Positions 7,135-55,832 of a stretch of 64,000 bases of DNA are shown here, in pieces. The position numbers and the translations under genes are program-made. Within the stretch, counting starts at the first letter, position 1. Each line of letters begins with the position of its first letter. Below the pieces are notes generated by a model. The model was not told where the DNA came from. It did no database searches and saw only the letters and a program-made list of their open reading frames with translations. This DNA is from Gemmatimonadota bacterium (lineage in GTDB: Bacteria; Gemmatimonadota; Gemmatimonadetes; Gemmatimonadales; GWC2-71-9). The stretch lies in the NCBI GenBank assembly GCA_003222035.1, contig QHUS01000057.1, positions 1-64,000 of the forward strand, in the 5' to 3' direction.

Positions 7135-8115
7135 TCAGGACGAGGTACTCTGACTGACAGTCGGACTGTCGGACTGCCTGACGGTAGTTGCGCTTTCAGT
7201 CCGACTGTCCGACCGTCCGACCCTGTTGGGGATCTTGTTTGCGAATTGGATCCACGCGACCGCCCCGACGATCAGAGCCATCGCGAGGAACGTGCGCGCG
7301 GTCACGGGTTCCGAGAGGATCAGCCAGCCGAGCAGCACGGCGATCACCGGGTTCACATATGCGTACGTCCCGACGATGGTGGGCGAGGCGTGGCGCAGCG
7401 CGTAGGTGTACGCGCTATAGCCGAGGATCGAGCCGAACACCACCAGGTAGGCGATCGCGCCGACGCCGCGTGGCGTGAGATGCCAGCGACTTCCCTCGCC
7501 GAGCAGCAGTCCGAGCACGGCGACGGTGGTGCCCCCGGCGATCATCTGGATGGCCGCGCCGACGTACGGACTCGTCTCCGTGTGATGCCGCTTGCTATAC
7601 ACTGAGCCGAGTGACCACGAGGCACTCGCACATGTGAGCGCGATCGGCCCGCGCAGATCGGCGCGCAGGATCTCCGCGGGGCTCGCCCCGACCAGAAGTG
7701 CCGTGCCGATGAAGCCGAGCAACAGTCCCATCACCACGCGCCAATTGAGATCGCCCGAGCCGCCCGGAATGATCGCGTCGAAGAACGCCATCCACAGCGC
7801 GACGGTCACGACGAAGATGCTGGCGATCCCGGACGCGGTGAATTGCTCCGCCCACACGACGAATGCGTTGCCGCCCGCGAGCAGCAGGATGCCCACAATC
7901 GCCTGCGTGCGCCAATCCACCAACCGCCGGGGCAGCTTGTCGCCCAACGCGAGCACGACGGCCAGCAGCAGCGTGCCCGCGATCAGGAATCGCAATCCGG
8001 CGAAGAGGAACGGTGGCAGCACTGACACGCCGACGCGGATGGCGAGGTACGTCGAGCCCCAGAAGACGCACACCACGAGGTAGGCGACGAGCGCCTTGCC
8101 GCGCAGCCCCGCCAT
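7135..8115 (-). CDS. EamA/DMT-family transporter
   Basis: Inner-membrane drug/metabolite transporter with about ten transmembrane segments in two EamA repeats. Clues are FWGSTYLAIRVGVSVLPPF at the N-terminus and SPTIVGTYAYVNPVIAVLLG in the second half. Relatives export amino acids and metabolites. An Lrp-type regulator gene overlaps its start by ATGA, which suggests amino-acid-linked export. The last 28 residues, rich in Ser, Thr and Gln, are encoded by an 8-bp stutter repeat (7150-7223). They probably do not belong to the original protein: the repeat seems to have replaced the natural C-terminus and stop. Confidence 0.85.
   Translation of the reverse strand: MAGLRGKALVAYLVVCVFWGSTYLAIRVGVSVLPPFLFAGLRFLIAGTLLLAVVLALGDKLPRRLVDWRTQAIVGILLLAGGNAFVVWAEQFTASGIASIFVVTVALWMAFFDAIIPGGSGDLNWRVVMGLLLGFIGTALLVGASPAEILRADLRGPIALTCASASWSLGSVYSKRHHTETSPYVGAAIQMIAGGTTVAVLGLLLGEGSRWHLTPRGVGAIAYLVVFGSILGYSAYTYALRHASPTIVGTYAYVNPVIAVLLGWLILSEPVTARTFLAMALIVGAVAWIQFANKIPNRVGRSDSRTESATTVRQSDSPTVSQSTSS
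7150..7223. repeat. 8-bp stutter array with hairpin, inside transporter 3' end
   Basis: Repeated words related to GTCGGACT and AGTCCGAC flank a short non-repeat centre. Arms GACAGTCGGACTG (7156-7168) and CAGTCCGACTGTC (7197-7209) form a perfect 13-bp hairpin stem. The whole array is read as the transporter's C-terminal tail. Confidence 0.75.
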
Positions 8116-8600
8116 CAGTCGAGCTCCACCGGGACGAATCCCGGCTTTTCAAACACGGTGCCCAGCACGATCGTCGTGCGCGTGTCCATCCGCGCGTGGG
8201 GATCGGGACCGCGAATGTCCCGCAGCAGGCCCTGCAAGCTCTCGAGATCCGGAGCCGCCACCTTGAGGATGTAGCAGTCCTCGCCGGCGACATGGTGGCA
8301 CTCGAGCACGCCGGGCTGCTTTTCCAACTCCCGCATTCGCGGCTCGTCGCCCACGTAATCGGAGGTGCCGTAGCGCACCGCCACGAACGCCGTCACCGGG
8401 AATCCGGCCTTCGCGCGATCGACCCGCGCGCCATATCCGGTGATGTAACCCGCTTCCTCCAGGCGTTTCACCCGCTCCATCACTGCCGGCCGCGACAGCC
8501 CGACTTCGTCGGCGACGGCCTGGTAGCTCGAGCGCCCGTCCGTGGCCAGCAACCGCAGGATCTTCCGATCGACGGCATCGACTTCGGTCTTGAGTGCCAT
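8115..8600 (-). CDS. Lrp/AsnC-family transcriptional regulator
   Basis: DNA-binding regulator of 161 residues that responds to amino acids or related metabolites. The N-terminal winged helix-turn-helix is visible as DAVDRKILRLLATDGRSSYQ and SRPAVMERVKRLEEAGYI. The C-terminal RAM effector domain follows (FVAVRYG, VLECHHVAGEDCYILKVAAPDLESLQGLL). Start chosen at ATG 8600 (MALKTEV), which gives the usual family length. Its stop overlaps the start of the EamA transporter gene, a common local regulator-exporter pair, so autoregulation and control of export are likely. The 169-bp divergent region to larE would hold its operator. Confidence 0.9.
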   Translation of the reverse strand: MALKTEVDAVDRKILRLLATDGRSSYQAVADEVGLSRPAVMERVKRLEEAGYITGYGARVDRAKAGFPVTAFVAVRYGTSDYVGDEPRMRELEKQPGVLECHHVAGEDCYILKVAAPDLESLQGLLRDIRGPDPHARMDTRTTIVLGTVFEKPGFVPVELD

Positions 8601-8769
8601 TTCGGAGCCCCAGTACCTTAATGACTTACTAGACGTAGACACCGTGAATGATTTTTGAACGCATCATAAGGGTAGTAGGTTTCACGCCTACGATCTATCC
8701 GGTTTTTGCGCGCAACTGCTCCGCCGAAAATGTCCTTTGATTGAGACAGTCTCACCCTTACTATTCGCC

Positions 8770-10773: not shown

Positions 10774-12179
10774 GCCGTCGTGTCCTGGTGGTCGACGACG
10801 AGAAGGGGATCCGCGAAGCGCTCACGCAGCTGCTCGAGTATGAGGAGATCGAAGTTCAGGCCTGCGCGTCGGGGTCGGAGGCCCTGCAGCGCTACTCCGA
10901 GTTCCGGCCCCATCTCGTGCTCCTCGACGTGAAAATGCAGGGGATGGACGGCCTGGAGGCCCTGCGCAAGCTGCGCGAGTTCGACGCACACGCCCAGGTC
11001 GTCATGATCTCCGGCCACGGTACGATCCAGACCGCCGTCGAGGCGACGCAGCTCGGCGCCTACGACTTCCTGGAGAAGCCGCTCGACACCAATCGCATCC
11101 TGCTCACGCTGCGGAACGCCCTGCAGCACGTGGATCTCACGAGCGAGAACGTTCGACTCAAAGCCGAGGTGCACCAGCAGTACGAGATGGTCGGCACGAG
11201 CCGCGCCGTGAAGCAGGTGATCGAGCGCATCGAGAAGGTCGCGCCGACCGCGGCCCGCGTGCTCATCACGGGGGAGAACGGCACGGGGAAGGAGCTGGTG
11301 GCGCGGGCGATCCACGCGCTCTCGCCCCGGTCGCGCGGGCCGTTCGTCGAGGTGAACTGTGCCGCGATCCCCACGGAGCTGATCGAAAGCGAGCTGTTCG
11401 GGCACATGAAGGGGAGCTTCACGGGAGCCTTCGCGGACCGCGCGGGAAAGTTCGAGCTGGCCGATGGCGGCACGCTGTTTCTCGACGAGATCGGGGACAT
11501 GAGCCTGTCGGCGCAGGCCAAGGTGCTGCGCGCGCTGGAAGAGGGCGTCATCTCGCGGGTGGGCTCGGGTAAGGCCGTCGCGGTGGACGTGCGGGTCGTC
11601 GCCGCCACGAACAAGGACCTGAGCGCCGAGATCGCGGCGGGGCGGTTCCGCGAAGACCTGCTATACCGACTGAACGTCGTACCGATCGAGGTGCCGCCGC
11701 TCCGCGCCCGCCGCGCCGACATCGCGCAGCTGGTCGCCCACTTCATGGGCCAGCTGACCAAGAGCGGAGGAGCGGGTGGTGGGGGGCTGCAGCCTAAAAC
11801 CTTCGACGCCGAAGCGCTGCAGCGCCTCGCGGCCCACGATTGGCCCGGTAACATCCGCGAACTGCGGAACGCCATCGAGCGAATCCTCATCCTCGCGGCC
11901 GGGCCGGTGGTCACGGCGGAGGACGTCGATCGCGTGGCAGGCGTGGGACGAGCGACGGGGGACGGGGGACAGGGAAGGGCGTCCGCCGACGTCGCTGGGG
12001 CGCCGTGGATGCGCGCGGCCACCTTCGAGGAATTCAAGCAGGTCGCGGAGCGCACCTACATCCTGGCGAAGCTGAAGGAAAACGACTGGAATGTGTCGGA
12101 GACCGCGCGCACATTGGACATGCCGCGCAGCAATCTCTATAAGAAGATTGAGCGCTACGGACTGACTCGGGAGGCTTAG
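10770..12179 (+). CDS. NtrC-family sigma-54-dependent response regulator
   Basis: Three-domain activator of 469 residues. The receiver domain carries the phospho-acceptor Asp in LVLLDVKMQGMDG. The AAA+ domain has Walker A GENGTGKE, the sigma-54 contact loop as GSFTGA (a Ser variant of GAFTGA) and Walker B GGTLFLDEIGD. The C-terminal Fis-type helix-turn-helix is visible as NVSETARTLDMPRSNLYKKI. It activates sigma-54 promoters after phosphorylation by a histidine kinase not found in this window. The linker between AAA+ and HTH holds three 7-bp stutter words (11955-11975). It starts with GTG overlapping the previous stop. Confidence 0.93.
   Translation: MSRRVLVVDDEKGIREALTQLLEYEEIEVQACASGSEALQRYSEFRPHLVLLDVKMQGMDGLEALRKLREFDAHAQVVMISGHGTIQTAVEATQLGAYDFLEKPLDTNRILLTLRNALQHVDLTSENVRLKAEVHQQYEMVGTSRAVKQVIERIEKVAPTAARVLITGENGTGKELVARAIHALSPRSRGPFVEVNCAAIPTELIESELFGHMKGSFTGAFADRAGKFELADGGTLFLDEIGDMSLSAQAKVLRALEEGVISRVGSGKAVAVDVRVVAATNKDLSAEIAAGRFREDLLYRLNVVPIEVPPLRARRADIAQLVAHFMGQLTKSGGAGGGGLQPKTFDAEALQRLAAHDWPGNIRELRNAIERILILAAGPVVTAEDVDRVAGVGRATGDGGQGRASADVAGAPWMRAATFEEFKQVAERTYILAKLKENDWNVSETARTLDMPRSNLYKKIERYGLTREA
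11955..11975. repeat. 7-bp stutter array in the regulator linker
   Basis: Three consecutive heptads, ACGGGGG twice and ACAGGGA once. Total 21 bp, in frame, encoding the Gly-rich linker between the AAA+ and DNA-binding domains. Confidence 0.7.
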
Positions 12180-12180: not shown

Positions 12181-12657
12181 GTGGCGATCGAGAAAGAGCA
12201 CGACTGGGACAAAGAGATGGCGGAGGTGGATCGGCTGCTCAAAAAGCTGCCGAACGCCGATCCGACCCTCGGTCGCAGTCGCGCCGAGCCGACGGTGAAG
12301 AAGCCCGCGGTCGGCGGCGGGAGCGGGGGCCACCTGGCCTTCGACGCCCGCACACGCGGTCGGGAAGTGCTCGGGACGTGGGCGCGGGTGCTCCTCGGCC
12401 TGCTGGTCGGCATCGGCGTCGCCCCGGGCGTGTGGCCGTACACGCACGGCTGCGGCCTGTACCTGATCCTCTACCTAGGGGGCGTCACGACCGTCATTGC
12501 CGCCGGACTGTGGTCGAGCGTCTCGTCGTGGCGGCACCGCCTCGGGTTCGCCCACGTGATCGCGCAGCTACTGATCGTGTGGGGGAGCCTGCTGCTGGCT
12601 CGCGAAGTGATCCCCCGCGTCGGTGCCAAACCTCAGGCCGTCTGGCTGTGTCCCTAG
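12181..12657 (+). CDS. small membrane protein of unknown function
   Basis: A 158-residue product with a charged, soluble N-terminal third (residues 1-60, containing KEHDWDKEMAEVDRLLKKLP). Three hydrophobic segments follow, around VLLGLLVGIGVAP, GLYLILYLGGVTTVIAAGLW and HVIAQLLIVWGSLLLA. No family is recognised. It begins with GTG one base after the stop of the NtrC-type regulator, so it is cotranscribed. Its stop codon lies inside the first word of the heptad array at 12651. Confidence 0.6.
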   Translation: MAIEKEHDWDKEMAEVDRLLKKLPNADPTLGRSRAEPTVKKPAVGGGSGGHLAFDARTRGREVLGTWARVLLGLLVGIGVAPGVWPYTHGCGLYLILYLGGVTTVIAAGLWSSVSSWRHRLGFAHVIAQLLIVWGSLLLAREVIPRVGAKPQAVWLCP

Positions 12658-12685
12658 TCCCTGGTCCCTAGCCCCTAGCCCCTCT
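12651..12685. repeat. five-word 7-bp stutter array bridging stop and start codons
   Basis: Five exact heptads: TCCCTAG, TCCCTGG, TCCCTAG, CCCCTAG, CCCCTCT. The first contains the upstream stop TAG. One base after the last comes the ATG of the aldehyde dehydrogenase. The array therefore makes up the whole intergenic gap, and no Shine-Dalgarno remains. Confidence 0.85.
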
Positions 12686-12686: not shown

Positions 12687-14074
12687 ATGCCCGAGAACTT
12701 CAAGAACTTCATCGCCGGCCAGTGGGTCGCCCCGGTCACCGGCGCGTACTTCGAAAACCGCAATCCCGCGGATTTCGATGATGTCATCGGTTGCTTTCCG
12801 CGCTCGGGTCCGGAAGACGTCACCCGCGCGGTGGCGTCGGCCAGACGGGCCTTCGCACAATGGTCCAGGACGCCGGCGCCGATCCGGGGCGAGGTGCTCC
12901 ATCGCGTGGGCGATCTGCTGGTCGCGCGCAAGGACGAGATCGCCCGCGCCATGACGCGGGAGATGGGCAAGGTCCTCGCCGAGACCCGCGGCGACGTGCA
13001 GGAAGGCATCGACACGGCGCACTACGCGCACACCGAAGGCCGCCGGCTGTTCGGGCGCACACCTGGAAGATGTTCCCGGCGCTGCTGTGCGGGAACGCCG
13101 TGATCTTCAAGCCCGCCGAGGACGTGCCCCATACGGCGCACCTGCTGGTGGAGATCCTGCTCGAAGCGGGACTGCCGCCCGAGGTCGTGCAGCTGGTGCA
13201 CGGCGAAGGCTCCGTCGTGGGCAAGGCAATGGTGGAGCATCCGGACGTACCGGTCATCTCGTTCACGGGATCGACCGAAACGGGATCGATCATCGGCGCG
13301 ACCTGCGGCCGCATGCACAAGCGGTTGTCGCTCGAGATGGGTGGCAAGAACGCCATGATCGTGATGGACGATGCCGACCTCGAGCTCGCGCTCGACGGGG
13401 TGTTATGGGGAGCGTTCGGCACGACGGGCCAGCGCTGCACCGCCACGAGTCGCCTGATCGTGCACCAGCGGGTGCACGACAAATTGGTCGAGATGGTGAG
13501 CGAGCGGGCCGGACGCCTGCGGCTCGGCCCCGGGCTCGACGCCAACACGGACGTGGGTCCCCTGATCAACGAGGACGCTCGCAAGAAAGTCGAGTACTAC
13601 GTCGGCGTGGCGCGGGAGGAGGGCGCGACCGTGGTGATCGGCGGCGAGCGGACGGCTGGGAAGGGACTCGACCGGGGCTGGTTCTACCGGCCCACGGTGC
13701 TCACCGGGGTGCGACCCGGCATGCGCGTTGAACAGGAGGAGATCTTCGGTCCCGTGCTCTGCGTCATCAAGGTTGGCTCGCTCGACGAAGCGATCGGCGT
13801 CAACAACGCCGTGAAATACGGACTCTCGAGCTCACTCTACACGCGGGATGTGAACGCCGCCTTTCGCGCGATGGGCGAGCTCGACACGGGGATTACCTAC
13901 GTGAACGCACCGACCATAGGCGCCGAGGCGCATCTCCCGTTCGGGGGAGTCAAGCAGACGGGGAACGGGCACCGCGAAGGCGGCTGGGAGGTCTACGACT
14001 TCTACTCGGAGACCAAGGTGATCTACGTGGACTTCTCCGGGACGCTGCAGCGCGCGCAAATCGACACGGAATAG
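12687..14074 (+). pseudogene. aldehyde dehydrogenase with internal deletion and frameshift
   Basis: NAD(P)-dependent aldehyde dehydrogenase family. The first part (MPENFKNFIAGQWV to GRRLFGRT) is in one frame. The rest, from TWKMFPALLCGNAVIFKPAE to the end, is in another. Family members have about 33-38 residues between these points, including the PWNFP motif whose Asn stabilises the oxyanion. That stretch is missing at about 13060 together with a net frame change. Downstream, the catalytic Glu (LEMGGKN), Cys (GQRCTATSR) and EEIFGPVL are intact. As read, the enzyme cannot be made; either the gene is dead or the assembly lost about 100 bp here. The product resembles semialdehyde dehydrogenases (VNAPTIGAEAHLPFGG). 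Confidence 0.85.
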
Positions 14075-16137: not shown

Positions 16138-16151
16138 ATACCAACGGCGTG

Positions 16152-16196
16152 GTGAGTGGTGCGTGGTTGTCCACGGTGCGATCACTCACCACTCAC
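16152..16196. repeat. 7-bp stutter array forming a hairpin after the sigma factor gene
   Basis: GTGAGTG and GTGCGTG on the left and two CACTCAC words on the right. GTGAGTGGTG (16152-16161) pairs perfectly with CACCACTCAC (16187-16196). The position between stop and the next ATG suggests a terminator or mRNA-end role, but no U-tract follows. Confidence 0.75.
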
Positions 16197-16220
16197 AACG
16201 CCTTTGTATATTGCCTCCCT

Positions 16221-19320: not shown

Positions 19321-20542
19321 CGCCGTCACGGTGGCGTGGGCGTGCGGCGGCGCGCGGCCCGCTCCCCCCCTCACGCCGGGCGCCGAGCCCGAGTTGCGCG
19401 TGGGACTGCTCGCCGGCGCGCGCAGCGTCACGCTGGGCGGCGACGGGGGCGGCGAGCTGCTGCTCAGCGACGACTCGAACGGCGAGCCGCTCGGCTCCAT
19501 TCCCGCGGGCACGAGGTGGACGGTCGTCGCCGACACCCCCGGAGTCCGGCTCGTGAAGGCCGACGGCACCCCCGGCGAGCAGCGCGCCGGCATCTCGGCC
19601 GTCAACGTTACCGAGCACCGGTTCGCCATGGCGAACGGACGTCGCTACCGGGGGCGGTTGAGCGTGATTCGCGACGCCGCGGGGCTGACGTTGATCAACC
19701 GGGTACCGGTCGAGAGTTACCTGGCGGGCGTGATCGGCGGCGAAATGGGGGCCCGCCGGCCGGAGGAACGGCAGGCGATGCTCGCGCAGGCGGTGGTCTC
19801 GCGAACCTTCGCCCTCCGGAACCGGGGCCGCTGGGAGCCGCAGGGGTTCGACACGTGGGCGGACGTGCGGGACCAGGTGTACACCGGGATTGCGGGCGAG
19901 ACGCCGGAGGTGTGGAGTGCCCTGCGCGCCACGCGCGGCGAGGTGCTTCGGTACGACGGCCAGATGATCTACGCGTACTTCCATTCGACGTGCGGGTTCT
20001 CGACCGCCGCCGTCGACGAGGCCTTCAAGACGGCCCAGGGCCAGCCCTACTTGCGTCCCGTTTCGGACGCGGCCGGGGGGGGTCACTACTACTGCGAGCT
20101 GTCACCGCGGTTTCGGTGGCGCGAGGAATGGGACAGCGCAAAGCTGCGCGCTATATTGTCGCGGACGCTTCCCGCGATGATGAACGCGGGCGGAGGTGGG
20201 CTCCAACGTATCACCGACGTCGCCGTGACCCGCACGACGCCGTCGGGTCGCGTGGGTGAGCTGCGCATCACGTTCGAGCACGGGGAGGTGCGGGTTCCCG
20301 GTCCGGATGTGCGCGCGGTGTTGCGGCCGCAGCCCGATCAACTCCTCGGGAGCACGGCGTTCCAGGTGGCGGTGACGAAGGAAGCCGGTGAGGTGAGCCG
20401 GCTCGTCGCCTCGGGCGTGGGGTGGGGCCACGGTGTCGGGTTCTGTCAGTGGGGCGCGGTAGGTCGGGCCCGCGCGGGTCAGGACTACCGCAAGATCGTC
20501 ACGACTTACTTTCCGGGGACCAATGTCGAGCGCCTCTACTAG
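19256..20542 (+). CDS. SpoIID/LytB-domain lipoprotein
   Basis: Exported 428-residue protein with an Arg-rich signal and lipobox-like VAWAC at residues 26-30. The SpoIID/LytB domain is clear: [50 protein letters not shown] and the C-terminal [23 protein letters not shown]. SpoIID of Bacillus is a lytic transglycosylase acting on stripped glycan; this organism is a diderm, so the role is probably peptidoglycan remodelling or amidase activation. ATG 19256 overlaps hemL by 65 bp but is needed for the signal peptide. Its stop TAG opens the repeat region at 20541. Confidence 0.88.
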
Positions 20543-21180
20543 GCAGGCCGCTAGCCGGCTAGGCGGTTGGGCGGTTAGGCGGGCCGCGGGTGCCGCACTC
20601 CTGCTAACCGCCTACCCGCCTGCCCGGCTACCCGCGCAGGGTGTTCTTTCGAGGGACGGTTGCGGGCGGGATGCGGCTCGACTACGGCCTGATCGCGCCG
20701 CGCGTCCGGGTACTCCTAGGGGTGTCGTACTACAGCGCCGATGTCAGCGCCGAGGCGTCGAAGCGGTTCGAGCAAGGGCTCCGAGACGTCGTGATCGACC
20801 CTACCGGTGACGATACGATCCGCCTCGGCCAGGTCACGTGGAGCGACGTGACGGCGGATCTCGACCTGCAGTGGGTGCTGCCCCAGGGGCGCGCCGTCAC
20901 GGTGTATCTGGGGGCCGGCGTGGGGGCGCATATTCGCCATGGCAGTGGGCCCGCGATCGACGGCACCTTCGTCCAGGACGCGCTGAACACCCTCACGCCG
21001 GGCCTGAACGGCACGCTCGGGGCGGAGCTCGGCGCGAAGCGGTGGCGCATCACAGTGGAGGCGCGCGGGGTGCTGGCGAGCGGCATGTCGACGGTTTCCC
21101 TTCGCAGCGGCGTCATGTATCGGTGGGCGGGGATGAGGCAGGGGGCAGGGGCGGGAGGGGGAGGAGGAAGGCCGAAGTGA
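20523..21180 (+). CDS. outer-membrane beta-barrel protein, signal peptide out of frame
   Basis: The mature part (20641-21180: FFRGTVAGGMRLDYGLIAPRVRVLLG and later amphipathic strands such as VTVYLGAGVGAHIRHG) looks like a small outer-membrane barrel protein. A fitting signal peptide, ALLLTAYPPARLPAQG, is encoded just upstream from ATG 20523 but in a different frame. The frames part near 20638, where one base extra or two missing would join AQ to VFFRGT. The signal region itself consists of 8-bp stutter repeats. The C-terminal tail, MRQGAGAGGGGGRPK, is also repeat-encoded. Either the gene is switched off or phase-variable, or this is an assembly slip. Confidence 0.6.
20561..20635. repeat. 8-bp stutter arrays with hairpin in signal-peptide region
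   Basis: The left array has words like GGTTGGGC and GGTTAGGC; the right array has the reverse complement type (CCGCCTAC, CCGCCTGC). GGCGGTTAG (20570-20578) pairs with CTAACCGCC (20604-20612). CTAG words also start at the upstream stop codon (20539-20542). Confidence 0.7.
21138..21165. repeat. 7-bp G-rich stutter array at the barrel gene 3' end
   Basis: GCAGGGG twice, then CGGGAGG and GGGAGGA, all in 7-bp phase. The array encodes the Gly-rich tail and lies just before the GTG start of the MocA-type gene, where it may also serve as its ribosome-binding region. Confidence 0.6.
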
Positions 21181-22184: not shown

Positions 22185-23710
22185 TGCTCGTCGCACTCGG
22201 CGCCCTGCTGCTCGCCGCCAGCTATCCGCCGTTCCATCTCCCGTTCCTCAGCTTCGTGGCGATCGCGCCGGCGGTGGTATTGCTCCGCCGGCTGGAACTG
22301 CGCCAGGACACGCGCGGCGCGTTGCGTTGGGGATTCTGGTACGGGTTCGTGACGCAGGGCGCCGTGCTGTATTGGCTCGTGGTCGCCCTGTGGCACTTCA
22401 CGCCCTTTTCGGCGCTCGGGTACCTCGCAACGATCGCGCTATTCGGCCTGTGGCACGCGCTGCTCTTCTGGCTCGTGGTCCGCGTACGCCTGCGCTTCCC
22501 GGTGCTGCCGCTGTGGGTCGCCCTTCCGGTGGCCTGGACGGCGGTCGAATGGGCGGTGGGGCACCAGGGCGACATCCGGTTCCCCTGGCTCGGGCTCGGC
22601 ACCTCGCTCGCCGACGCCCCGGTGCTGGTCCAGTGGGCCGATATCGCTGGCGCGCGTGGGGTGACGCTCTGGCTGGGTTGGTGCAATGTCATGCTCGTAG
22701 AAGCGGCGGACAGTCGGGCGGTGGGACAGTCCGGCATCGTGCGGCGATTCGCGCTCGTGCTCGCGACGATCGTCGCGGCCTGGGGCTACGGCGCGTGGCG
22801 CATCCGGACGCTCCCGCTGCGCGAGCTGGGGACCGTCGGCCTCATTCAGCCGAACGAAGGCTTCCGGGAGAAATGGGATCCTCGTCACGCCGATAGCGTC
22901 GTGGCGAAGCTGGTGACCATGTCGCGCGACCTGGAGGCGCGCGGCCCGTTGGATCTCATGATCTGGCCCGAGGCCGCAATCCCCGGTTATCTGCGACCGG
23001 CGTGGGATTCCGCGGTTGCTCGTTCTGCGCGCGAGAGCCGCACGCCGATTCTCACGGGCGGCATTTACGCCGAGGATCGTCCCGATGGATCGTACGAATA
23101 CTTCAACGCGGCGTTTTACTTCGATTCCTCCGGCGCGTGGCGTCGCTATCCGGTCTACGAGAAGCGCTACCTGGTGCCGGTCGTCGAGCGCGTGCCGTTC
23201 GTTCCAGCGCGGCTGATGCAGGGCGTGCCGGGGATCGGGCATTGGTCCGGCGGATTCGGTCGCGGCAGGAGCCTGCCCCTTTACCCCAGCACGCTCGGCC
23301 GCTTCGGTGTCGCGATCTGCTACGAGTCCGCCTTCGAAGAGCTGGCCCGGGCGTACCGGCGCGCCGGCGCCGATTTCCTCGTGAACATCACGAACGACGC
23401 GTGGTACGGGCGCACCGCCGGGCCATACCAGCACGTGTCCCACCTCGTCCTGCGCGCGATCGAGACGCGGATGGGCATCGCACGCGCCGCCAACGACGGG
23501 ATTTCCGAGGTGGTCGATCCGCTCGGGCACTCCGCTGCGGAGACTGGCCTGGAGCGGGAGGCGACGGTCTCGGCCCGCCTGCGAACCAGCGATGTCGTCC
23601 CGCTGTACACGCGGCTCGGCGACTGGGTGGGGACGCTGGTGGTGCTCACCACCCTGGGGTTCGCCGGCCTACTGTTGGTGGACAAATGGCGATCACGACA
23701 CCTGTCATGA
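22184..23710 (+). CDS. lnt: apolipoprotein N-acyltransferase
   Basis: Inner-membrane enzyme of 508 residues that adds the third acyl chain to lipoproteins so they can be sent to the outer membrane by Lol. About six transmembrane helices occupy the first 210 residues, followed by the nitrilase-like periplasmic domain. The catalytic triad is in place: Glu of WPEAAIPG, Lys of YEKRYLVPV and Cys of VAICYESAF. An in-frame 24-bp stutter of 8-bp words (22708-22731) encodes part of a loop before the last N-terminal helix. It supports the diderm interpretation together with lolA at 39496. Confidence 0.94.
   Translation: MLVALGALLLAASYPPFHLPFLSFVAIAPAVVLLRRLELRQDTRGALRWGFWYGFVTQGAVLYWLVVALWHFTPFSALGYLATIALFGLWHALLFWLVVRVRLRFPVLPLWVALPVAWTAVEWAVGHQGDIRFPWLGLGTSLADAPVLVQWADIAGARGVTLWLGWCNVMLVEAADSRAVGQSGIVRRFALVLATIVAAWGYGAWRIRTLPLRELGTVGLIQPNEGFREKWDPRHADSVVAKLVTMSRDLEARGPLDLMIWPEAAIPGYLRPAWDSAVARSARESRTPILTGGIYAEDRPDGSYEYFNAAFYFDSSGAWRRYPVYEKRYLVPVVERVPFVPARLMQGVPGIGHWSGGFGRGRSLPLYPSTLGRFGVAICYESAFEELARAYRRAGADFLVNITNDAWYGRTAGPYQHVSHLVLRAIETRMGIARAANDGISEVVDPLGHSAAETGLEREATVSARLRTSDVVPLYTRLGDWVGTLVVLTTLGFAGLLLVDKWRSRHLS
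22708..22731. repeat. 8-bp stutter array inside lnt
   Basis: Three octads, GGACAGTC, GGGCGGTG, GGACAGTC. Total 24 bp, so the reading frame is kept (residues DSRAVGQS). The words are related to those in the transporter array at 7150. Confidence 0.65.
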
Positions 23711-23720: not shown

Positions 23721-25709
23721 GTGAGGATCGGGATCGACGTCGGCGGAACCTTCACCGATCTCGTCGCCGTCGCCGAGGACGGGTCGATCGCGGTTCGGAA
23801 GGTCGTGACGACGCCGGACGATCCGTCAATCGGCATGTTCCGGGCGCTGGATGCCCTCGCTCCCTCGTCCCCCGTCCCCCCCGCCATCGATTTGCTGGTG
23901 CACGGTACCACAATCGCGACCAACGCCCTACTGGAACGGCGCGGCGCACGCGTGGTGCTCATCACCACCCGCGGTTTCGAAGACCTGCTGTGGCTGCGAC
24001 GCCAGGACCGCGCGGCGCTGTACGACCTCGCCCGCGATCATCCGCCGCCGCTCGTGGCCCGGTCCGACGTCGTGGGCGTCGCGGAGCGCATGGGACCGGC
24101 GGGTGTGCTCGAGCCGCTCGGCGACGCTGAGGTCGCCCGTGTGGTCACCGTGGTCCACGCGCTCGCACCAGAGGCGGTCGCGGTCGCGCTCCTGTTCGCC
24201 TTCCGCCACCCTGAGCACGAGCGGCGGCTCGCGGCGGCACTACGCGCTGCCCTCCCGGACATTCCAGTCGCCGCGAGCCACGAAGTCCTGCCGCTGTTCC
24301 GCGAGTTCGAGCGCACCAGCACGACGACCGTCGAAGCGTACCTGCGCCCCAAGGTCTCCGCCTATTTGGGCCGACTCGAGCGTGCGGCCCGAGCCCGGGA
24401 GGTCTCGACGTTGCGGGTGATGACGTCGAGCGGAGGTACGCTCCCGCCCGCAACGGCGGCCGCCCGCGCAGCGTCGCTCGCGTTGTCGGGCCCGGCAGGA
24501 GGCGTCGTCGGTGCGCGGCTCGTCGGGGTGGCCGTAGGCGTGTCGGACCTCCTCACGCTCGACATGGGTGGGACGAGCGCCGACGCGAGCCTTGTCTCGG
24601 GCGGCGCGCCGCTGGCCGACGGGGGCGCCGCCGTGGCCGGCGTCCCCCTCGCCCTGCCCGCGGTCTTGATCGAGACCGTGAGCGCCGGGGGCGGGAGCAT
24701 CGCACATCTGGACGAGGGTGGCGCGCTCAAGGTGGGGCCGGAAAGCGCCGGAGCGGATCCCGGCCCGGCGTGCTACGGCCGCGGCGGCGAGCGGCCGACC
24801 GTCACCGACGCCTGCCTGGCGCTGCGCTGGCTCGACCCGCAGCATCCCCTCGCGGACACGGTGCGGCTCGATCGCGCGGCCGCGGAGCGCGCCCTGTGCT
24901 CGCTTTCGAATGAGCTGGCGGCGACCGATCCGGCCGCCATCGCCACCGGTATCGTCGCGGTCGCCGGCGCCGTGATGGCGCGGGCGCTCAAGCGGGTCAG
25001 CGTGGCGCGCGGGCTCGATCCCCGGCAGATGGCCCTGCTGCCGTTCGGTGGCGCCGGGGGGCTGTTTGGATGCGCCCTCGCCGACGCGCTCGGCATGCGC
25101 TCCATCGTCATCCCACCGCATCCGGGTGTCCTCTCGGCGCTGGGGCTCGGCTCCGCCGCCGAGCGAGTGGATGTGCTCGCGTCGTGCCACCGTTCGCTCG
25201 ACGGGATGAAACCGGCGGAGCTCGGAGGCCTGTTCGCGCCGCTCCTCGAAGAAGGGGGCCGCCAGCTGCCCGGAGCGGGAGTGGTTTTGCTGCGGTACGC
25301 CGATTGTCGGTTTGCCGGGCAAGGCTACGAGGTGACGGTGCGCGTCACGGATGACCACCCGCGACGCATTCGCGATGCCTTCCTGGCCGAGCATCGGACG
25401 CGGTTCGGCCACGCCACGAGCGACCATACGGTCGAGCTCGTGAACCTGCGCGTGGTCGCCCTACGCGAGGGTCCCATGCCACGCTTTTCCGGTCTGCGGC
25501 GCGTGGTGCAACGGCCCGGCGCGAGTCGTCCCATCGCCGTGCGAGGCAACCGCGTCAGCGCGGCGGTCTGGGCACTCGACGAGCTCGCTCCCGGACTTAC
25601 CATCGCGGGACCGGCAATCCTCGCGGGGCGTGACGCGACCGCGCTGGTCGAGCCGGGGTGGCGTGGTACGACGCATCCGTCCGGAGCCGTACTGCTGGAG
25701 CGCCTATGA
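23721..25709 (+). CDS. hyuA: hydantoinase/oxoprolinase subunit A
   Basis: ATP-dependent amide-ring hydrolase subunit of 662 residues. The nucleotide-binding start IGIDVGGTFTDLVAV, LLVHGTTIATNALLERRGARV, TLDMGGTSADASLV and LPFGGAGGLFGCALADALG identify the HyuA/oxoprolinase A family. With HyuB it opens hydantoins, 5-oxoproline or related rings at the cost of ATP. It starts at GTG 23721, 10 bp after lnt; ATGA overlap with hyuB couples the subunits. Residues 46-52 are encoded by a 7-bp stutter (23861-23881). The substrate cannot be told from sequence. Confidence 0.92.
   Translation: MRIGIDVGGTFTDLVAVAEDGSIAVRKVVTTPDDPSIGMFRALDALAPSSPVPPAIDLLVHGTTIATNALLERRGARVVLITTRGFEDLLWLRRQDRAALYDLARDHPPPLVARSDVVGVAERMGPAGVLEPLGDAEVARVVTVVHALAPEAVAVALLFAFRHPEHERRLAAALRAALPDIPVAASHEVLPLFREFERTSTTTVEAYLRPKVSAYLGRLERAARAREVSTLRVMTSSGGTLPPATAAARAASLALSGPAGGVVGARLVGVAVGVSDLLTLDMGGTSADASLVSGGAPLADGGAAVAGVPLALPAVLIETVSAGGGSIAHLDEGGALKVGPESAGADPGPACYGRGGERPTVTDACLALRWLDPQHPLADTVRLDRAAAERALCSLSNELAATDPAAIATGIVAVAGAVMARALKRVSVARGLDPRQMALLPFGGAGGLFGCALADALGMRSIVIPPHPGVLSALGLGSAAERVDVLASCHRSLDGMKPAELGGLFAPLLEEGGRQLPGAGVVLLRYADCRFAGQGYEVTVRVTDDHPRRIRDAFLAEHRTRFGHATSDHTVELVNLRVVALREGPMPRFSGLRRVVQRPGASRPIAVRGNRVSAAVWALDELAPGLTIAGPAILAGRDATALVEPGWRGTTHPSGAVLLERL
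23861..23881. repeat. 7-bp stutter array inside hyuA
   Basis: TCCCTCG, TCCCCCG, TCCCCCC in exact 7-bp phase. Total 21 bp, in frame, encoding a Pro/Ser-rich loop. Confidence 0.6.
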
Positions 25710-33254: not shown

Positions 33255-34146
33255 GCGCACGGTTCTCGGGCCCAGCATCGCCGCCGCGCTCCGCGACGGG
33301 GCGGGGCGGCTCCACGGCTCGGGCATCGTCGACCCGCGGCGCGAGGCCCGCATGCTGTGGGCTGCCGTCGCAGGCGACGCCACGACGCCCGGCGACGTCT
33401 GGATCGGGCGGGACCGCGCGCCGGCTCCCGAAGTCGCGGCGCGCTTCCGCCAGGCGATCGAGCTGCGGGCGGGCGGGGTGCCCTTCGCATATGCGGTCGG
33501 GTCGACGGATTTCCGGACGTTGCAATTGAGCATCGACCGGCGCGCCCTGATTCCGCGCCCCGAGACCGAGGGGCTGGTCGACCTGGTTCTGCACGCAGCC
33601 GGGACGCGGGATGCGGGATGCGGGATGCGAGGTGTGGCCGCGGACATCGGGACAGGGTGTGGGTGCATCGCGCTGGCGCTCGCGGTCGAGGGCAACTTCG
33701 AGCGGGTGATCGCGGTCGAGCGGTCGCCCGAGGCCGCGGCCCTGGCGCGCCAGAACGTAGCGCGCCTGCACCCGGCCGTGCCGGTCGAGGTGCGCCAGGG
33801 CGACCTCTTCGCGCCGCTCGCGGGCGCACGGTACCGGGCGATCGTCTCGAACCCCCCGTACCTGACCGAAACGGAATACCTTGCGCTCGACCCGGCGGTA
33901 CGCGAGTTCGAGCCACGCGAGGCCCTGGTCAGCGGCGCCGACGGGCTGGACGCCACGCGTGCCTTGCTGGCAGGCGCGGCAGCGCTGCTCGAGCCGGGCG
34001 GGCTCGTCGCGCTCGAGATCGACGAGCGGCGGGCCGAGACAGTTCGCTCGCTCGCGCACTGCTGTGGCTGGTCTCGCGTCACGGTGCACGATGACCTGTT
34101 CGGCCGGCCCCGCTTCCTGGTGGCCCGACGTGCGGAGGGGGTATGA
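33247..34146 (+). CDS. prmC: release factor glutamine methyltransferase
   Basis: SAM-dependent enzyme of 299 residues that methylates the GGQ glutamine of release factors. It shows an N-terminal helical domain, the family motif LIPRPETEGLVD, the SAM loop ADIGTGCGCIALALA and the catalytic NPPY in IVSNPPYLTETEY. Directly before the SAM loop are about ten extra residues (GTRDAGCGMRGV) encoded by four 7-bp stutter words, which lengthens a surface loop. It starts at GTG inside the end of prfA and overlaps the YlbF-like gene by ATGA. Confidence 0.94.
   Translation: MPERTVLGPSIAAALRDGAGRLHGSGIVDPRREARMLWAAVAGDATTPGDVWIGRDRAPAPEVAARFRQAIELRAGGVPFAYAVGSTDFRTLQLSIDRRALIPRPETEGLVDLVLHAAGTRDAGCGMRGVAADIGTGCGCIALALAVEGNFERVIAVERSPEAAALARQNVARLHPAVPVEVRQGDLFAPLAGARYRAIVSNPPYLTETEYLALDPAVREFEPREALVSGADGLDATRALLAGAAALLEPGGLVALEIDERRAETVRSLAHCCGWSRVTVHDDLFGRPRFLVARRAEGV
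33601..33628. repeat. four-word 7-bp stutter array inside prmC
   Basis: GGGACGC followed by three perfect GGGATGC words, 28 bp in all. As 28 is not a multiple of three, loss or gain of one word would shift the prmC frame. Confidence 0.85.
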
Positions 34147-34496
34147 TCGACCAAAAGGCGGGAGAGTTGGGCCGGCTGCTCGGGCAGAGCGAAGAGTACA
34201 AGACCCTCGTGCGGGCCAGCGACCGCATGAAGGAGGACGCGGTCGTCAGGCAGTTGCTCGCCGAGGTCGAGCGCATCGCTCAGGACATCGAGCGCGCCAC
34301 CCAGGAGGGGCGCGAGCCCGCCAAAGACCAGGTGGAGCGGTACGACCGAGCGCTGCAGAGCGTCCAGGCGAACCCGGTGTATCAGCAGGTCGTAGCCGCG
34401 CAAGCCAATTTCGAGAAACTAATGGCCAAGGTGAACGCGCGGATCTACGACGGCATGAAGCAGGGCGCGGCGAGCCCCATCATCACGCTGGGTTAG
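34143..34496 (+). CDS. YlbF/YmcA-family helical protein
   Basis: Cytoplasmic protein of 117 residues, almost wholly alpha-helical (GRLLGQSEEYKTLVRASDRM, EVERIAQDIERATQEGREP, NPVYQQVVAAQANFEKLMAKV). This matches the YlbF family. In Bacillus, YlbF and YmcA partner RNase Y in mRNA processing and competence; a comparable role here is inference. It overlaps prmC by ATGA. Its TAG stop is the first part of the heptad array running into tmk. Confidence 0.75.
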   Translation: MIDQKAGELGRLLGQSEEYKTLVRASDRMKEDAVVRQLLAEVERIAQDIERATQEGREPAKDQVERYDRALQSVQANPVYQQVVAAQANFEKLMAKVNARIYDGMKQGAASPIITLG

Positions 34497-34516
34497 GGAC
34501 TGGGGACTGGGGATGG
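34496..34516. repeat. 7-bp stutter array joining ylbF-like stop and tmk start
   Basis: GGGACTG, GGGACTG, GGGATGG. The G of the stop TAG is its first base, and the tmk start ATG lies inside the third word. The whole gap is repeat; its G-rich words could act as ribosome site. Confidence 0.85.
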
Positions 34517-35157
34517 GTGCGCGGGACTCTGGGGTGTTCGTGGTAGTCGAGGGCCCCGAAGGGGCGGGGAAGTCGACGCTGGCTCGGTGGCTCGGGGTCC
34601 GGCTGACCGCCGAGGGGCTGCCAGTGGTGACGGTGCGGCAGCCGGGCGGCACACCGGTGGCGGAAGCGGCGCGCAAAGTGGCGCTCAGGTTTCCCCACGA
34701 GATGTCGCCGGCGGCGGAGTTGTTCCTGTTCCTGGCGGCCCGTGCGGACCTGGTGTTTCGCGTCATCCGGCCGGCGCTCGAGGCGGGGCAGGTGGTGGTG
34801 GCGGACCGGTTCGACCTGTCGACGCTGGCGTACCAGGTCGCGGGGGCGGGCCTGCCGGCTGACGATGTGGCGCGCGCCATTCGGCTCGCCACAGGTGGCC
34901 TGGTTCCGGACTTGACCGTGGTGCTCGACGTGCCCGTTGACGTCGGGCGCGCGCGGCAGCGCGCCGCGCGCAAGGTCCAGGACCGGATCGAACGTCAGGA
35001 CGACGCGTTCCACCGGCGCGTGCTCGACGCGTATCGCCGGGCGACGGGGCCGGGCGTGGTACATATTGATGCAACGCAGTCCAAGAAGGCCGTGCAGGAC
35101 GCCGCGTGGCGCGAGGTCATGGCGGTGACCGCACTCTCAACGCGAGGCGTCTCATGA
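34513..35157 (+). CDS. tmk: thymidylate kinase
   Basis: Cytoplasmic kinase of 214 residues that phosphorylates dTMP to dTDP. The P-loop is EGPEGAGKSTLARWL, the substrate motif RQPGGTPVAEAARKV (usually REPGGT), the DRF motif is VVADRFDLSTLAYQV, and the lid has RARQRAARKVQDRIE. Its ATG lies within the heptad array. It overlaps ctpA by ATGA. The Gln in place of Glu in the RxPGGT motif is a small deviation. Confidence 0.93.
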   Translation: MGARDSGVFVVVEGPEGAGKSTLARWLGVRLTAEGLPVVTVRQPGGTPVAEAARKVALRFPHEMSPAAELFLFLAARADLVFRVIRPALEAGQVVVADRFDLSTLAYQVAGAGLPADDVARAIRLATGGLVPDLTVVLDVPVDVGRARQRAARKVQDRIERQDDAFHRRVLDAYRRATGPGVVHIDATQSKKAVQDAAWREVMAVTALSTRGVS

Positions 35158-39502: not shown

Positions 39503-40197
39503 TCCACTACTCGCACTCCTGCGGGCGGTGAAAAAGTCAGCTCGCGGCCAGGGACGCCCCCGTTGACCCGGATGTTGCGCAAGGTCACCGTCCGCCGCTG
39601 GCTCGAAGACTCCGTGATGTCGAGGCGGCGCACGAGCCCGTCTTCCCGTCCGACCCAGATCGTCGCCTCGCTGTAAGGCGCGTCGCGCCCCATGGGTACG
39701 AGCCGCACCACATCCGCCATACCCTCGGGCAGCGAGTCTGCCCGGACGTACGAGGCCGTGTACCGCTCGTGGGGGCGCTCCACGAACTGGCCGATGAGAT
39801 TCGGTCCGGTCGTGCCGTAGTCCGGGATGCGGGACCGGATCACTTGTCCGGGCGTCGTGCTCGGCGTGTAGAGCCAGAGAAAGCGCCCGTCGGCGACGAT
39901 GCGATCGCCCTTGGGCGCCGTGAAGCGCATGGCGAACCGGCTGGGTCGCATCTGGTACAGCCGCCCGTGCGTCGTGTCGGGCGCGCCGATCATCGGGTTC
40001 ACGATGACCTGGTCGAAGTTTGCCGAGAGGCTGGTGATCGTCTGGTAGACCTGGCTCGCGTGGTCGAGGATGGGCCAGGGGTCGGGGCTCTGGAGGCCGA
40101 GGGAAAGCCCGATCGCAAGAAACGCGGAACATGCGTACCAGCGTTGGCTCGGCTGTTCCGCGTTCCGACTTCCGCGTTCCGCGTTTTCCGTTCTCAC
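39496..40197 (-). CDS. lolA: LolA-like outer-membrane lipoprotein carrier
   Basis: Periplasmic carrier that shuttles lipoproteins to the outer membrane. The LolA fold is indicated by [61 protein letters not shown] and the C-terminal strands. The frame starts at GTG 40197, overlapping the DAHP synthase stop. It first reads 14 residues ([14 protein letters not shown]) that come entirely from a 7-bp stutter array, and only then the signal peptide ([14 protein letters not shown]). The repeat therefore inserted at the start of the gene, and the original start may be lost. The partner lnt is at 22184. Confidence 0.85.
40155..40196. repeat. six-word 7-bp stutter array at the DAHP synthase/lolA junction
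   Basis: Six heptads of the GTTCCGC type (with GTTCCGA, CTTCCGC, GTTTTCC, GTTCTCA), 42 bp in exact phase. On the minus strand the array begins with the stop TGA of the DAHP synthase gene. It shares most words with the array at 55756. Confidence 0.88.
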
Positions 40198-41234
40198 GCC
40201 CCCACCGACGCCGGCTCCGCCACCCGTCGCCCGATCACCTCGGCGATCACCCGGATCTCGCGCATCAGCTGGGCGAACTGGTCGGGAAAGAGGGTCTGCG
40301 CGCCGTCGGACAGCGCCTGATCGGGATTGGGGTGCACTTCCACGATGATGCCGTCCGCCCCCGCCGCGACCGCCGCGCGCGCCATCGGGATCACCTTGTC
40401 GCGCAGCCCGGTGCCGTGGGACGGATCCGCGATGATCGGGAGGTGCGACAGCTTGTGCACGACGGGAATGGCGGTGAGATCGAACACGTTGCGGGTCGCG
40501 GTGTCGAAGCCGCGAATGCCCCGCTCGCACAGGATCACGTCGTGGTTCCCTTCGGCGAGCACGTATTCCGCCGAGAGGAGCAGCTCCTCGATCGTTGCCG
40601 ACATCCCGCGCTTCAGCAGCACGGCCTTCTTGGCCCGACCCGCCGCCTTGAGGAGCGACGAGTTCTGCATGTTGCGGGCGCCGATCTGAATGATGTCCGC
40701 GATCTCTGCGACGTATGCCACGCCCTCCGGGTCCATCGCCTCGGTGCAGACGAGCAGGCCCGTCTCCTCGCGCGCCTTGGCCAGGAGCTTCAGCCCCGGG
40801 CGTCCCAGTCCCTGGAAGGCGTAGGGGGACGTGCGGGGCTTCCACGCGCCGCCGCGCAGGATGACCGCGCCCGCCTCCTTGACGAGCCGCGCCGCCTCGA
40901 TGATCTGCCGCTCGCTCTCCACGGAGCACGGGCCCGCGATGGTCACGACGTCGGTGCCGCCGACGGCGACGCCGCCCGGGAGCCGCACGACGGTGTTCTC
41001 TTCCTTCCACTCGCGACTCACCTGCTTGTACGGCTTGGTGACGTGAATGACGTCCTGCACGCCGGGGAGGCCTTCCAGACGCGACGCGTCCACGCGACCG
41101 TCGTTGCCGACGAGGCCGACGGCGGTGCGCTGCGCCCCCGGCATGAGCTGGGCTTTGTAGCCCATCTCCTGAATCACTGCGATGACGCGCCGGACCTCGT
41201 CGTCGGTCGCGCCGTGCCGCATCACGATGAGCAC
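40194..41234 (-). CDS. aroF: 3-deoxy-7-phosphoheptulonate (DAHP) synthase
   Basis: First enzyme of the shikimate pathway, joining phosphoenolpyruvate and erythrose-4-phosphate; 346 residues. The N-terminal ferredoxin-like domain ([25 protein letters not shown]) and core motifs [40 protein letters not shown] and [12 protein letters not shown] place it in the type I-beta group, in which the N-terminal domain allows allosteric feedback control. It starts with GTG three bases after the MBL hydrolase stop. Its stop forms the first bases of the lolA repeat. Confidence 0.94.
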
Positions 41235-53090: not shown

Positions 53091-53110
53091 GTCCCCCGCC
53101 CTCCAGCGAC

Positions 53111-54018: not shown

Positions 54019-54651
54019 ATGCAGGTCGGGGGGGTCGGGCTGGCCAGGCGCGCCGCGCGCGCCGTGGCGGCGGCAGCGGGGCTCATGGTCCTGCTGGCGC
54101 TGCAGCCGGAGCCTGCCCGCCTGGCGGAAACGGCCGGCTCGCACGCCCGTGCCTTGATCGTGTCCGACCAAGCGCGCCGCTATCTCCTGCTCCAGTATCG
54201 CGCGTATCCGACCGAGTTCATGGGCTGCATGATCGGCGAGATCCACGGGAATGCCGTGATCGTACGACGCATCGCGCCGGCGGACGTCGAGCCCGGACAC
54301 TCCACTGAGACAACCGTCGTTCCCAAGCAGACGTGCGAGGACGCAGGCTGGGCGGGGACGGTGGGCGTGATCCACAGCCACCCGCAGGGCGAGCGGTGCT
54401 GGTATTTCTTCCCTGGCACGCGCGTGGCGAGCTCGGACGCGCACTCGTTCGCCCGGCAGATCTATCCCGTGGACGCCATCATGTGCGGTAACCGGGTCGT
54501 TTGGATCAGCCGGGACATGGTGCAGCAGCAGGTTCCGCTCTCGGGTGCCGACCTGCCGCCGGGCGCGGCGGCGCCGGTGCGGCAGCAGCGGGGCAACCAG
54601 GTGCACGGCGGCGCGGCCGCGTCGGACGGCAGCGACTACGGGAGCCGCTAG
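54019..54651 (+). CDS. secreted JAMM/MPN-like protein
   Basis: Exported protein of 210 residues. The signal is rich in Arg and Ala, then hydrophobic (AVAAAAGLMVLLALQ). The body looks like a JAB1/MPN metalloprotease: PTEFMGCMIGEIHGNAVIV supplies the Glu, and VGVIHSHPQGERCWYFF with VASSDAHSF corresponds to HxHP-(x)n-SxxD. The spacing puts Ala where the canonical Ser stands (ASSD), so activity is uncertain. Four cysteines could form disulfides outside the cytoplasm. JAMM proteins with a signal peptide are unusual; the substrate is unknown. It is convergent with ychF (CTAG overlap). Confidence 0.7.
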   Translation: MQVGGVGLARRAARAVAAAAGLMVLLALQPEPARLAETAGSHARALIVSDQARRYLLLQYRAYPTEFMGCMIGEIHGNAVIVRRIAPADVEPGHSTETTVVPKQTCEDAGWAGTVGVIHSHPQGERCWYFFPGTRVASSDAHSFARQIYPVDAIMCGNRVVWISRDMVQQQVPLSGADLPPGAAAPVRQQRGNQVHGGAAASDGSDYGSR

Positions 54652-55751
54652 ACGTTGAACCGGAACAGCAGGATGTCTCCGTTCTGCACGACGTAGTCCC
54701 GCCCTTCGCTTCTGACCAAGCCCTGCTCCCGCGCCGTCTTGTACGACCCCACGCGCTCGAAGTCGCGATAGGACACGGTCTCGGCGCGAATAAAGCCGCG
54801 CTGGAAATCGGAGTGGATCTCGCCCGCGGCGTCGAACGCAGTGCCGCCCTGGTGCATGGTCCACGCGCGTACCTCGTTCTCCCCGACCGTGAAGAACGTC
54901 TGCAGGCCAAGCAGCCGGTAGCCCGCATGGATCAGCCGGTCGAGTCCCGGCGCGCTGACGCCGGCGCTGGCGAGGTACTCCGCCCGCTCGTCGCCTGACA
55001 GCTCGCTCAGTTCCGCCTCGAACTTGGCGGAGAAGAGCACGATCTCCGCTTCTTCGTGGTGGGTCTGGACCGCGGTCCGCAGCGCGTCGAGTCGCTTCCC
55101 GCCGCCCGCGGCGAGGTCGTCTTCGTTGACGTTGGCGGCGTAGAGGATCGGTTTGGCGGTGAGCAGCCCGAGCTGGCGCAGGAATCGCACGGCGTCCTCG
55201 CTCTCGCCGGCCTCGCGCGCGCCGCGGCCCGCGTCGAGCTCGGCGATCACGCGCTCCAGGACCCCGACCTCGGTCTGAGCGTCCTTGTCGCCGGAGCGGG
55301 CGGTCTTGCGGGTCTTCTCGAGCCGCCGCTCCACGACCGCGAGGTCGGCCAGGGCGAGCTCGCTCGTGATGACGTCGTGGTCGCGCACCGGGTCTACGGG
55401 CCCCATCACGTGCACCACGTCCGGGTCGTCGAAGCAGCGGATCACGTGGACGACCGCGTCGACTTCACGGATGTGCGACAGGAACTGGTTGCCGAGTCCC
55501 TCGCCCTGGGACGCGCCCTTGACCAGGCCGGCGATGTCCACGAACTCGACCACCGCCGGGACCTTCTTCTTGGGCTTGACGAGCTGGTTCAACCGCTCGA
55601 GGCGCGGGTCGGGGACCTCGACCACGCCGACGTTGGGCTCGACGGTGCAGAAGGGGTAGTTCTCCGCCGCGGCGGCCTTGGACGAGGTGAGAGCGTTGAA
55701 CAGCGTGGATTTTCCCACGTTGGGTAAGCCAACTATCCCGAGGCGGAGCAT
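54648..55751 (-). CDS. ychF: redox-regulated ATPase YchF (OLA1 family)
   Basis: Obg-related P-loop protein of 367 residues that prefers ATP and binds ribosomes. It shows [34 protein letters not shown], the switch region [31 protein letters not shown], a coiled coil and the C-terminal TGS domain ([27 protein letters not shown]). Start ATG 55751. The sequence before it is pure stutter repeat, so no ribosome site is present. Translation may depend on coupling with pth upstream. Confidence 0.95.
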   Translation of the reverse strand: [367 protein letters not shown]

Positions 55752-55755
55752 GTCA

Positions 55756-55832
55756 GAACGCGGAACGCGGAAGTGGGAACGCGGAACATGCACGTCTGTT
55801 CCGCGTTCCGCGTTCCGACTTCCGCGTTCTCA
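55756..55832. repeat. eleven-word 7-bp stutter array with long hairpin between pth and ychF
   Basis: 77 bp in exact 7-bp phase. The left half has GAACGCG words with one GAAGTGG; the right half has GTTCCGC words with GTTCCGA and CTTCCGC. The halves are inverted copies, about 32 bp each with few mismatches, around a 10-base loop. The last three bases are the pth stop. Only four bases separate the array from the ychF ATG. Confidence 0.92.

Follow-up and report, generated by a model that had tools for sequence, protein, structure and literature searches.

Tandem heptanucleotide repeats have been catalogued in bacteria for decades without a cause, and to our knowledge the large protein family known as S23p, IVP or four helix bundle has a solved structure and no function. 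In this article we bring the two together, starting from a series of 7- and 8-bp tandem arrays in a 64,000-nucleotide stretch of DNA (the window: contig QHUS01000057.1, positions 1 to 64,000, assembly GCA_003222035.1) from a Gemmatimonadota soil metagenome-assembled genome that is 94% complete (the host, G000). We consider it quite probable that they derive from small mobile elements shaped as hairpins, each array being an arm of such an element or a solitary arm left behind, and that an element in its full form bears an IVP gene. A literature search, limited in subscription journals, found nothing connecting the IVP gene family to dispersed heptamer hairpins, so this reading would trace heptanucleotide repeats to a single origin and place the protein family in a context for the first time.

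Several described systems resemble these elements in part. The 23S rRNA intervening sequence (IVS) of Coxiella burnetii is 428 nt long, with a single S23p (PF05635) gene, complementary ends of about 28 bp and tandem heptamers (GACAGAT) in one arm, and has been called a selfish element (PMC4990558). Our elements share with such IVSs an S23p/23S_rRNA_IVP gene (PF05635, TIGR02436) and complementary ends forming a long stem, but whereas IVSs lie in rRNA helices 9, 25 and 45, those described here are found at junctions between protein genes, with numerous copies, a variety of words and short derivatives that lack the gene. The GGGAATC arrays of Xanthomonas and the GGGGA(C/T)T arrays of Nostoc are intergenic heptamers, mostly of four units, and in Xanthomonas about 70 convergent inverted pairs occur, with 83% found beside the corresponding genes in a sister species (PMC4692102). 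Ours are likewise tandem 7-nt units, about four of them, scattered between genes; that study, however, reports a single word in each genome and no link to a gene, whereas in our material several words and periods occur side by side and replace one another. REPIN/RAYT systems (PMC3116915) also combine many inverted-pair hairpins and variable loops with a low-copy gene, but that gene is of another protein family and their arms are REP palindromes rather than tandem words. The TAACTGA repeats of Beggiatoaceae (PMC4679880) are, like ours, dispersed intergenic heptamers by start codons with a patchy distribution across phyla, although nearly all are direct and unpaired. Finally, the short tandemly repeated repetitive (STRR) sequences of heterocystous cyanobacteria are 7-bp tandem words, and their likeness to ours rests on plasmid IVP genes with 7-bp arms.

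Arrays, words and hairpins

Across 817 kb of the host genome, with local triplet shuffling as the control, there are 38 arrays of period 7 (1 after shuffling), 9 of period 8 (0), 11 of period 10 (0) and 28 of period 14 (0), with just 0–1 at each of periods 11, 13, 15, 16 and 17 (for period 11, none in either sequence). The excess of 7- and 8-bp periods, which the first-pass annotation of this DNA had named as its own check, is therefore present over these 817 kb; the period-10 arrays, overlooked in that annotation, are part of the same phenomenon, and the window alone holds 4 period-7 arrays in the period scan against 0 in the control. With Tandem Repeats Finder, arrays of period 7 or 8 are obtained at 7156/7199, 11945, 12650, 16149, 20552/20604, 23854, 33600, 34496, 40155 and 55756/55798; the array at 21137 was detected with merely 2.1 copies, and that at 22708 falls under the threshold and was recognised by eye alone. 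At least ten loci with 3 to 11 words each had been claimed, and nearly all of the loci stand; the copy numbers do not, since each arm has 2–5 units and larger totals arise by summing two arms.

The same annotation held that each locus has its own word, which is mostly wrong. The genome contains 159 copies of doubled GTTCCGC (GTTCCGC-GTTCCGC, at most one mismatch) but 9 of the reversed control word, so GTTCCGC is not locus-specific, and the word families ATTGCGG, GTCGGACN and GGTGGAGGGC are likewise dispersed, leaving a minority of single arrays with rare or unique words. The most common words are AACGCGG and ATTGCGG in the host, ATTGCGG in G001, AAACGGG and AACGCGG in G002, and AACGCGG in G009, so labelled among the relatives in the genus. 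The published words GGGAATC and GGGGAYT are not those of the host, where the 817-kb scan returns AACGCGG, ATTGCGG and others.

Several window arrays are the paired arms of single hairpins (55752-55833, 20547-20635, 7156-7222 and 16142-16206), a pairing that the first-pass annotation, right though it was in pointing to hairpins, had missed; folding of these pairs gives z down to -7.8. The order of arms is always 5'-(G-rich word)n-loop-(C-rich word)n-3' (22 pairs so, 0 reversed). In family A the arm reads AACGCGG AACGCGG AAGTSGG AACGCGG AACA - loop - TGTT CCGCGTT..., with a constant inner boundary and variable loops, and the window copy at 55752..55833 reads AACGCGG AACGCGG AAGTGGG AACGCGG AACA-loop-TGTT CCGCGTT CCGCGTT CCGACTT CCGCGTT. 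The odd unit (AAGTCGG or AAGTGGG) stands at a fixed arm position in several unlinked copies; since such position-specific variants recur in dispersed copies, the arms must have been copied as units rather than grown in place. Placement is also strongly biased, and the reported tendency of arrays to run from a stop to the next start codon holds up: of 74 Gemmatimonadota hairpins, 40 have an ORF (open reading frame) stop no more than 10 nt away, against 8% of random positions. A separate observation on the loops is that AGGTCG or its complement occurs in 12 of 61 (G000, G001, G002 and G009), where about 1.2 would be expected.

These features bear directly on local polymerase slippage, the explanation towards which the first-pass annotation had partly leaned, in which 7–8 nt is the unit that the polymerase duplicates most readily and an array of any word can arise where it stands. 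Unit number does vary, both between Coxiella strains (PMC4990558) and within one element, whose copies in Trichormus and Scytonema differ in length by 14 nt or two units, and single arrays with unique words exist, so that slippage is likely to be a process that adds and removes units. As the main source it is largely refuted, and we rate it improbable, because the same words recur at tens of sites per genome as genome-wide families, arm polarity is fixed, variant units keep their position, and the arms are linked to one gene family and inserted as whole elements with a duplication, as set out below. The dedicated mechanism that had been offered as the other option fares far better, in that the words are shared with full-length elements bearing a four-helix-bundle gene.

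The four-helix-bundle gene between the arms

In full elements the arms enclose a gene for a four-helix-bundle protein (PF05635/TIGR02436, S23p/IVP), as in a host ATTGCGG pair 382 nt apart that surrounds such an ORF (L205). PF05635 is present in all ten genomes of the genus, at 2–11 copies each, and in 0 of 14 control genomes, and of 69 IVP genes examined in the genus, 49 are flanked by inverted arms with a score of at least 15, against 1 of 120 random positions. Arms and gene are thus linked, and an arm word is dispersed through genomes that have an IVP element bearing the same word. The arm words of IVP elements equal those of short hairpins for AACGCGG (L306), ATTGCGG (L205), AATGCGG (L313, L317), GGTGCGT (L301), GGGAAAC (L290, L298), the 10-bp GGTGGAGGGC (L299) and the 8-bp GACGCCTA (L309). 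In seven IVP-negative relatives the family A word has 0–12 matches, near background, and the scanned relatives with at least 18 are all IVP-positive. Protein identity and arm similarity correlate significantly yet weakly (Mantel p 0.005).

Every bacterial group that was sampled shows this architecture. When 15 genomes from several phyla were selected solely by the presence of (GTTCCGC)3, all 15 contained PF05635 (base rates 159 of 298 in Gemmatimonadota and 77 of 369 in Gammaproteobacteria), and 24 of the 29 IVP genes tested in them had inverted arms, mostly periodic. In a class-wide sample of Gammaproteobacteria, with period-7 arrays sought within 300 bp of the gene, arrays stood to the left of 22 of 29 IVP genes and to the right of 19 of 29, compared with 2 of 51 control windows, and other periods gave 0–1. 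The arm word GTGAATA of one IVP element has 206, 203 and 45 occurrences in three genomes, all of which have IVP genes flanked by GTGAATA, and 0–5 in twelve others. On plasmids, the IVP protein is nearly confined to cyanobacteria, chiefly the heterocystous forms that are the classical STRR hosts, and the gene is flanked by 7-bp arms in the majority of 12 cyanobacterial plasmid loci (Nostoc, Calothrix, Anabaena, Trichormus), in keeping with the STRR resemblance noticed in the window; the phage records searched contained no IVP. The nearest solved structure to the IVP protein is 2GSC (XCC0516), which, from its locus name, we take to be a Xanthomonas campestris protein and so to come from a species with GGGAATC arrays.

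Neither the window nor seven IVP/Avd loci gave any Rfam match or rRNA, and the annotated neighbours of elements (nrdB/nrdA, cas6/cas4, cas10/cmr3) place them at protein-gene junctions, not in rRNA genes. Three IVP elements lie between CRISPR-Cas genes (cas10/cmr3 or cas6/cas4), in Picosynechococcus PCC 7003 (L439), Anabaena sp. 90 (L430) and Pseudanabaena (L437), and these suggest a bias to operon junctions.

Two other routes deserve weighing. In the first, a Y1/RAYT transposase would move the hairpins as REPIN-like elements and the IVP genes would be passengers, which would suit the inverted pairs, variable loops, many short copies and one conserved single-copy gene (the IVP at obg in five genomes); the transposase family PF01797 is, however, missing from G000, G002, G004 and G007, and G000 and G002 are among the genomes richest in hairpins. 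In the second, the elements would depend on a reverse transcriptase, with IVP acting like the Avd protein of diversity-generating retroelements, to which it is distantly related (NF033474, E 5e-4); yet none of the ten genomes of the genus has PF00078, and a likely genuine Avd set beside a reverse transcriptase (G400) shows no such arms. With no reverse transcriptase in the genus and no Y1 transposase in the host, we regard the transposase route as very unlikely and give the reverse-transcriptase route just as little credence. G400 itself had looked like a case of recent transposition on account of its eleven near-identical PF05635 hits, a candidate that we rejected, these being Avd-like genes of an apparent multi-copy diversity-generating retroelement. 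Its ten loci L408-L417, on a 1.54-Mb gammaproteobacterial contig, are each at most 3.3 kb, about 98-100% alike and equipped with an Avd-like gene, beside which L408 has an apparent reverse transcriptase and a variable-repeat-like stretch.

Insertion and word switching

Closely related plasmids catch whole elements as clean insertions. Between Trichormus plasmid C and Nostoc linckia plasmid 2 the flanks are 98.4-99.6% identical and the filled site differs by 423 nt with GTAAT on both sides, and between plasmids pNsp_a and pNsp_c of Nostoc ATCC 53789 the insertion has TTCTA on both sides; a third cyanobacterial pair has the near-match TAATG/TTATG. Among the duplicated bases is the stop codon, joined in the third pair by an overlapping start, and therefore neither gene is broken. 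In addition, L444 is a 213-nt hairpin without an IVP gene that has the same words and stands at the site where L433 and L450 hold a full element, so that it has the traits of a miniature inverted-repeat transposable element (MITE): terminal inverted repeats, no gene and the same ends as a coding element (L433).

At orthologous sites it is the word that changes. The junction at 40121-40190, compared in nine genomes of the genus whose flanking genes are 80-91% identical, has a periodic hairpin at the same place in 9/9, built of AACGCGG, ATTGCGG, AATGCGG, the 8-bp GGACCGGC or the 8-bp GGCGGTTA/GGCGGATA, and in G006 two words are mixed within one arm. Next to a tRNA gene, with flanks 95-100% identical, G000 has AACGCGG where G001 has ATTGCGG; other junctions switch likewise, including two sites in frame within genes and one absent from several species, and the alignment of junctions proposed at the outset thus shows sites with and without arrays and changes of word. 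At obg, one IVP gene is kept upstream in G000, G001, G002, G003 and G009 with differing words, and in G001 an AATGCGG element is nested in an older CCGCAAT array. The arms of the pth-ychF site (55752-55833) are swapped and inverted in G002. At 40121-40190 the 22-nt loop is inverted in G000 relative to G006, and its flanks are not.

Such constancy of position could instead mean that these are selected host hairpins, acting as RNA-processing or transcript-stability sites and homogenised genome-wide, with IVP as their RNA-binding partner rather than a factor of mobility. Hairpins that keep their place in nine species while words change, and an IVP gene vertically kept at obg, are what this would lead one to expect, and 23S IVSs are cleaved by RNase III (PMC4990558). 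It accords poorly with empty sites that have near-identical flanks and target duplications, with in-frame copies inside genes and with presence on plasmids, and we think it improbable, on a par with slippage as the main source.

We therefore return to mobile elements with IVP-bearing full versions. A full element is about 420-550 bp long, with some four G-rich words of 7-10 bp, one gene for a four-helix bundle of about 125 aa, and the words again as reverse complements, and the short hairpins of the window would be internally deleted, non-autonomous, MITE-like copies. Insertion would duplicate 5 bp and favour stop/start junctions, where a duplicated stop and start leave both genes intact, and an occasional in-frame copy inside a gene could also survive. 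Because of its linkage to the arms, the IVP protein would be the driver of movement, presumably binding its own word arms, recruiting or directing cutting and mobilising short copies in trans. If, as we propose, each word family is tied to one IVP lineage, turnover of lineages would change the words at favoured sites and so yield species-specific words. Repeated hits at one site would reflect insertion into existing hairpin loops, a view with which the nested element of G001 and the arm of two words in G006 agree, and 23S IVSs take the place of tetraloops in rRNA hairpins (PMC4990558); excision followed by re-insertion could also account for the change of word.

Not everything fits comfortably. 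Twenty of the 69 IVP genes in the genus are without strong arms, some of them at contig ends, and for hairpin families B and D the 94%-complete host genome yielded no IVP gene to match. Array words compared with the IVP arms of their own genome give clear examples, but the table of exact matches is mixed, and the own-genome excess of IVP arm 13-mers in four genomes is marginal (permutation p 0.055), chance GC-rich matches blurring the test. In the IVP protein no fold of a nuclease or recombinase was recognised. The 5-bp duplications come from two clean pairs and one near-match, all cyanobacterial, while Gemmatimonadota flanks are too diverged to display target duplications. Comparisons for the host reach no closer than species level. 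Movement itself has never been observed. All of these weigh against the proposal.

More broadly, the evidence leaves evenly balanced, in our estimate, the idea of a widespread class of elements whose sole protein is a four-helix bundle without a known catalytic site, with lineage-specific arm recognition, 5-bp duplication at stop/start junctions and mobilisation in trans, and of which rRNA IVSs, STRRs and Xanthomonas heptamers would be local faces. The heptamer repeats of cyanobacteria and Xanthomonas are probably explained by the same elements, although for chromosomal STRRs and Xanthomonas arrays the link is a prediction drawn from anatomy, host range and the 2GSC match. The model predicts which word flanks which gene in any genome. 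Were IVP indeed the mobility factor, a fold that is not that of a transposase would be moving DNA with a constant target duplication, which would be surprising. Word switching at fixed sites, for its part, offers a naturally kept history of rival elements replacing one another.

Individual sites in the window

Repeat features of the window, with positions counted from its first nucleotide
Feature	Position	Strand	Context and fold
Hairpin, family B, 8-bp GTCGGACN / NGTCCGAC	7146..7226		fold z -4.3; family dispersed in genome
Single array, 7-bp GGGACGG-type	11945..11974		within long ORF; length and word differ between species
Single array, 7-bp GTCCCTA	12650..12683		from stop codon to ATG of next gene; other 7-bp words in relatives
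Hairpin, 7-bp GGTGNGT / CACNCAC	16140..16208		between stop TAA and following ATG; fold z -6.3
Hairpin, 8-bp GGCGGTTA-type	20540..20642		directly after stop codon; fold z -2.2
Weak in-frame insertion, 8-bp GGACAGTC	22705..22735	+	inside lnt gene
Hairpin right arm, CCCTCGT	23854..23878	+	in hydantoinase gene
Single array, 7-bp GCGGGAT	33600..33629		word present elsewhere in genome too
Single array, 7-bp GGGACTG	34496..34517		Tandem Repeats Finder
Hairpin, family A, AACGCGG / CCGCGTT, left arm truncated	40121..40190		3' of stop of DAHP synthase gene (40194-41234, minus)
Hairpin, family A	55752..55833		between pth and ychF; -58.5 kcal/mol, z -7.8

Several of these sites can be set beside full-length elements. 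For the family B hairpin, the sister species G007 has an GGACGGGC element of 8-bp words with an IVP gene (L331); for the hairpin at 16140..16208, which is absent at that site in G003, G004 and G008, related arms occur in L301 of the host (GGTGCGT) and L329 of G005 (GGTGCGC); and the word of the pth-ychF hairpin belongs to an AACGCGG element with an IVP gene in G009 (L306). At 20540..20642 relatives have GGACGGTC or GGCGGTCA words, and the hairpin loop overlies the apparent signal-peptide coding sequence of the following ORF; the arms within 20540-20700 appear to encode part of that signal peptide, and N-terminal residues would therefore vary by species.

In-frame arrays within conserved proteins had also been pointed out, and two sites confirm them, with lengths equal modulo three across species. 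At 22705 relatives have the 7-bp words GGGGAGC, GGGAGCA or GGGGAGA with length differences in multiples of 3, and in the very species that have GGGGAGC (G001, L342) or GGGGAGA (G003, L339) at this site, the exact word also forms the arms of an IVP element. At the hydantoinase site G001 has a complete hairpin of 73 nt that is absent in others, lengths again agreeing modulo 3. Lastly, at 13060/13061 the host is short of about 100 bases that are present in all nine sister species, and its ORF is split into 12687-13103 and 13087-13731; this could be either a scaffold gap or a genuine deletion.

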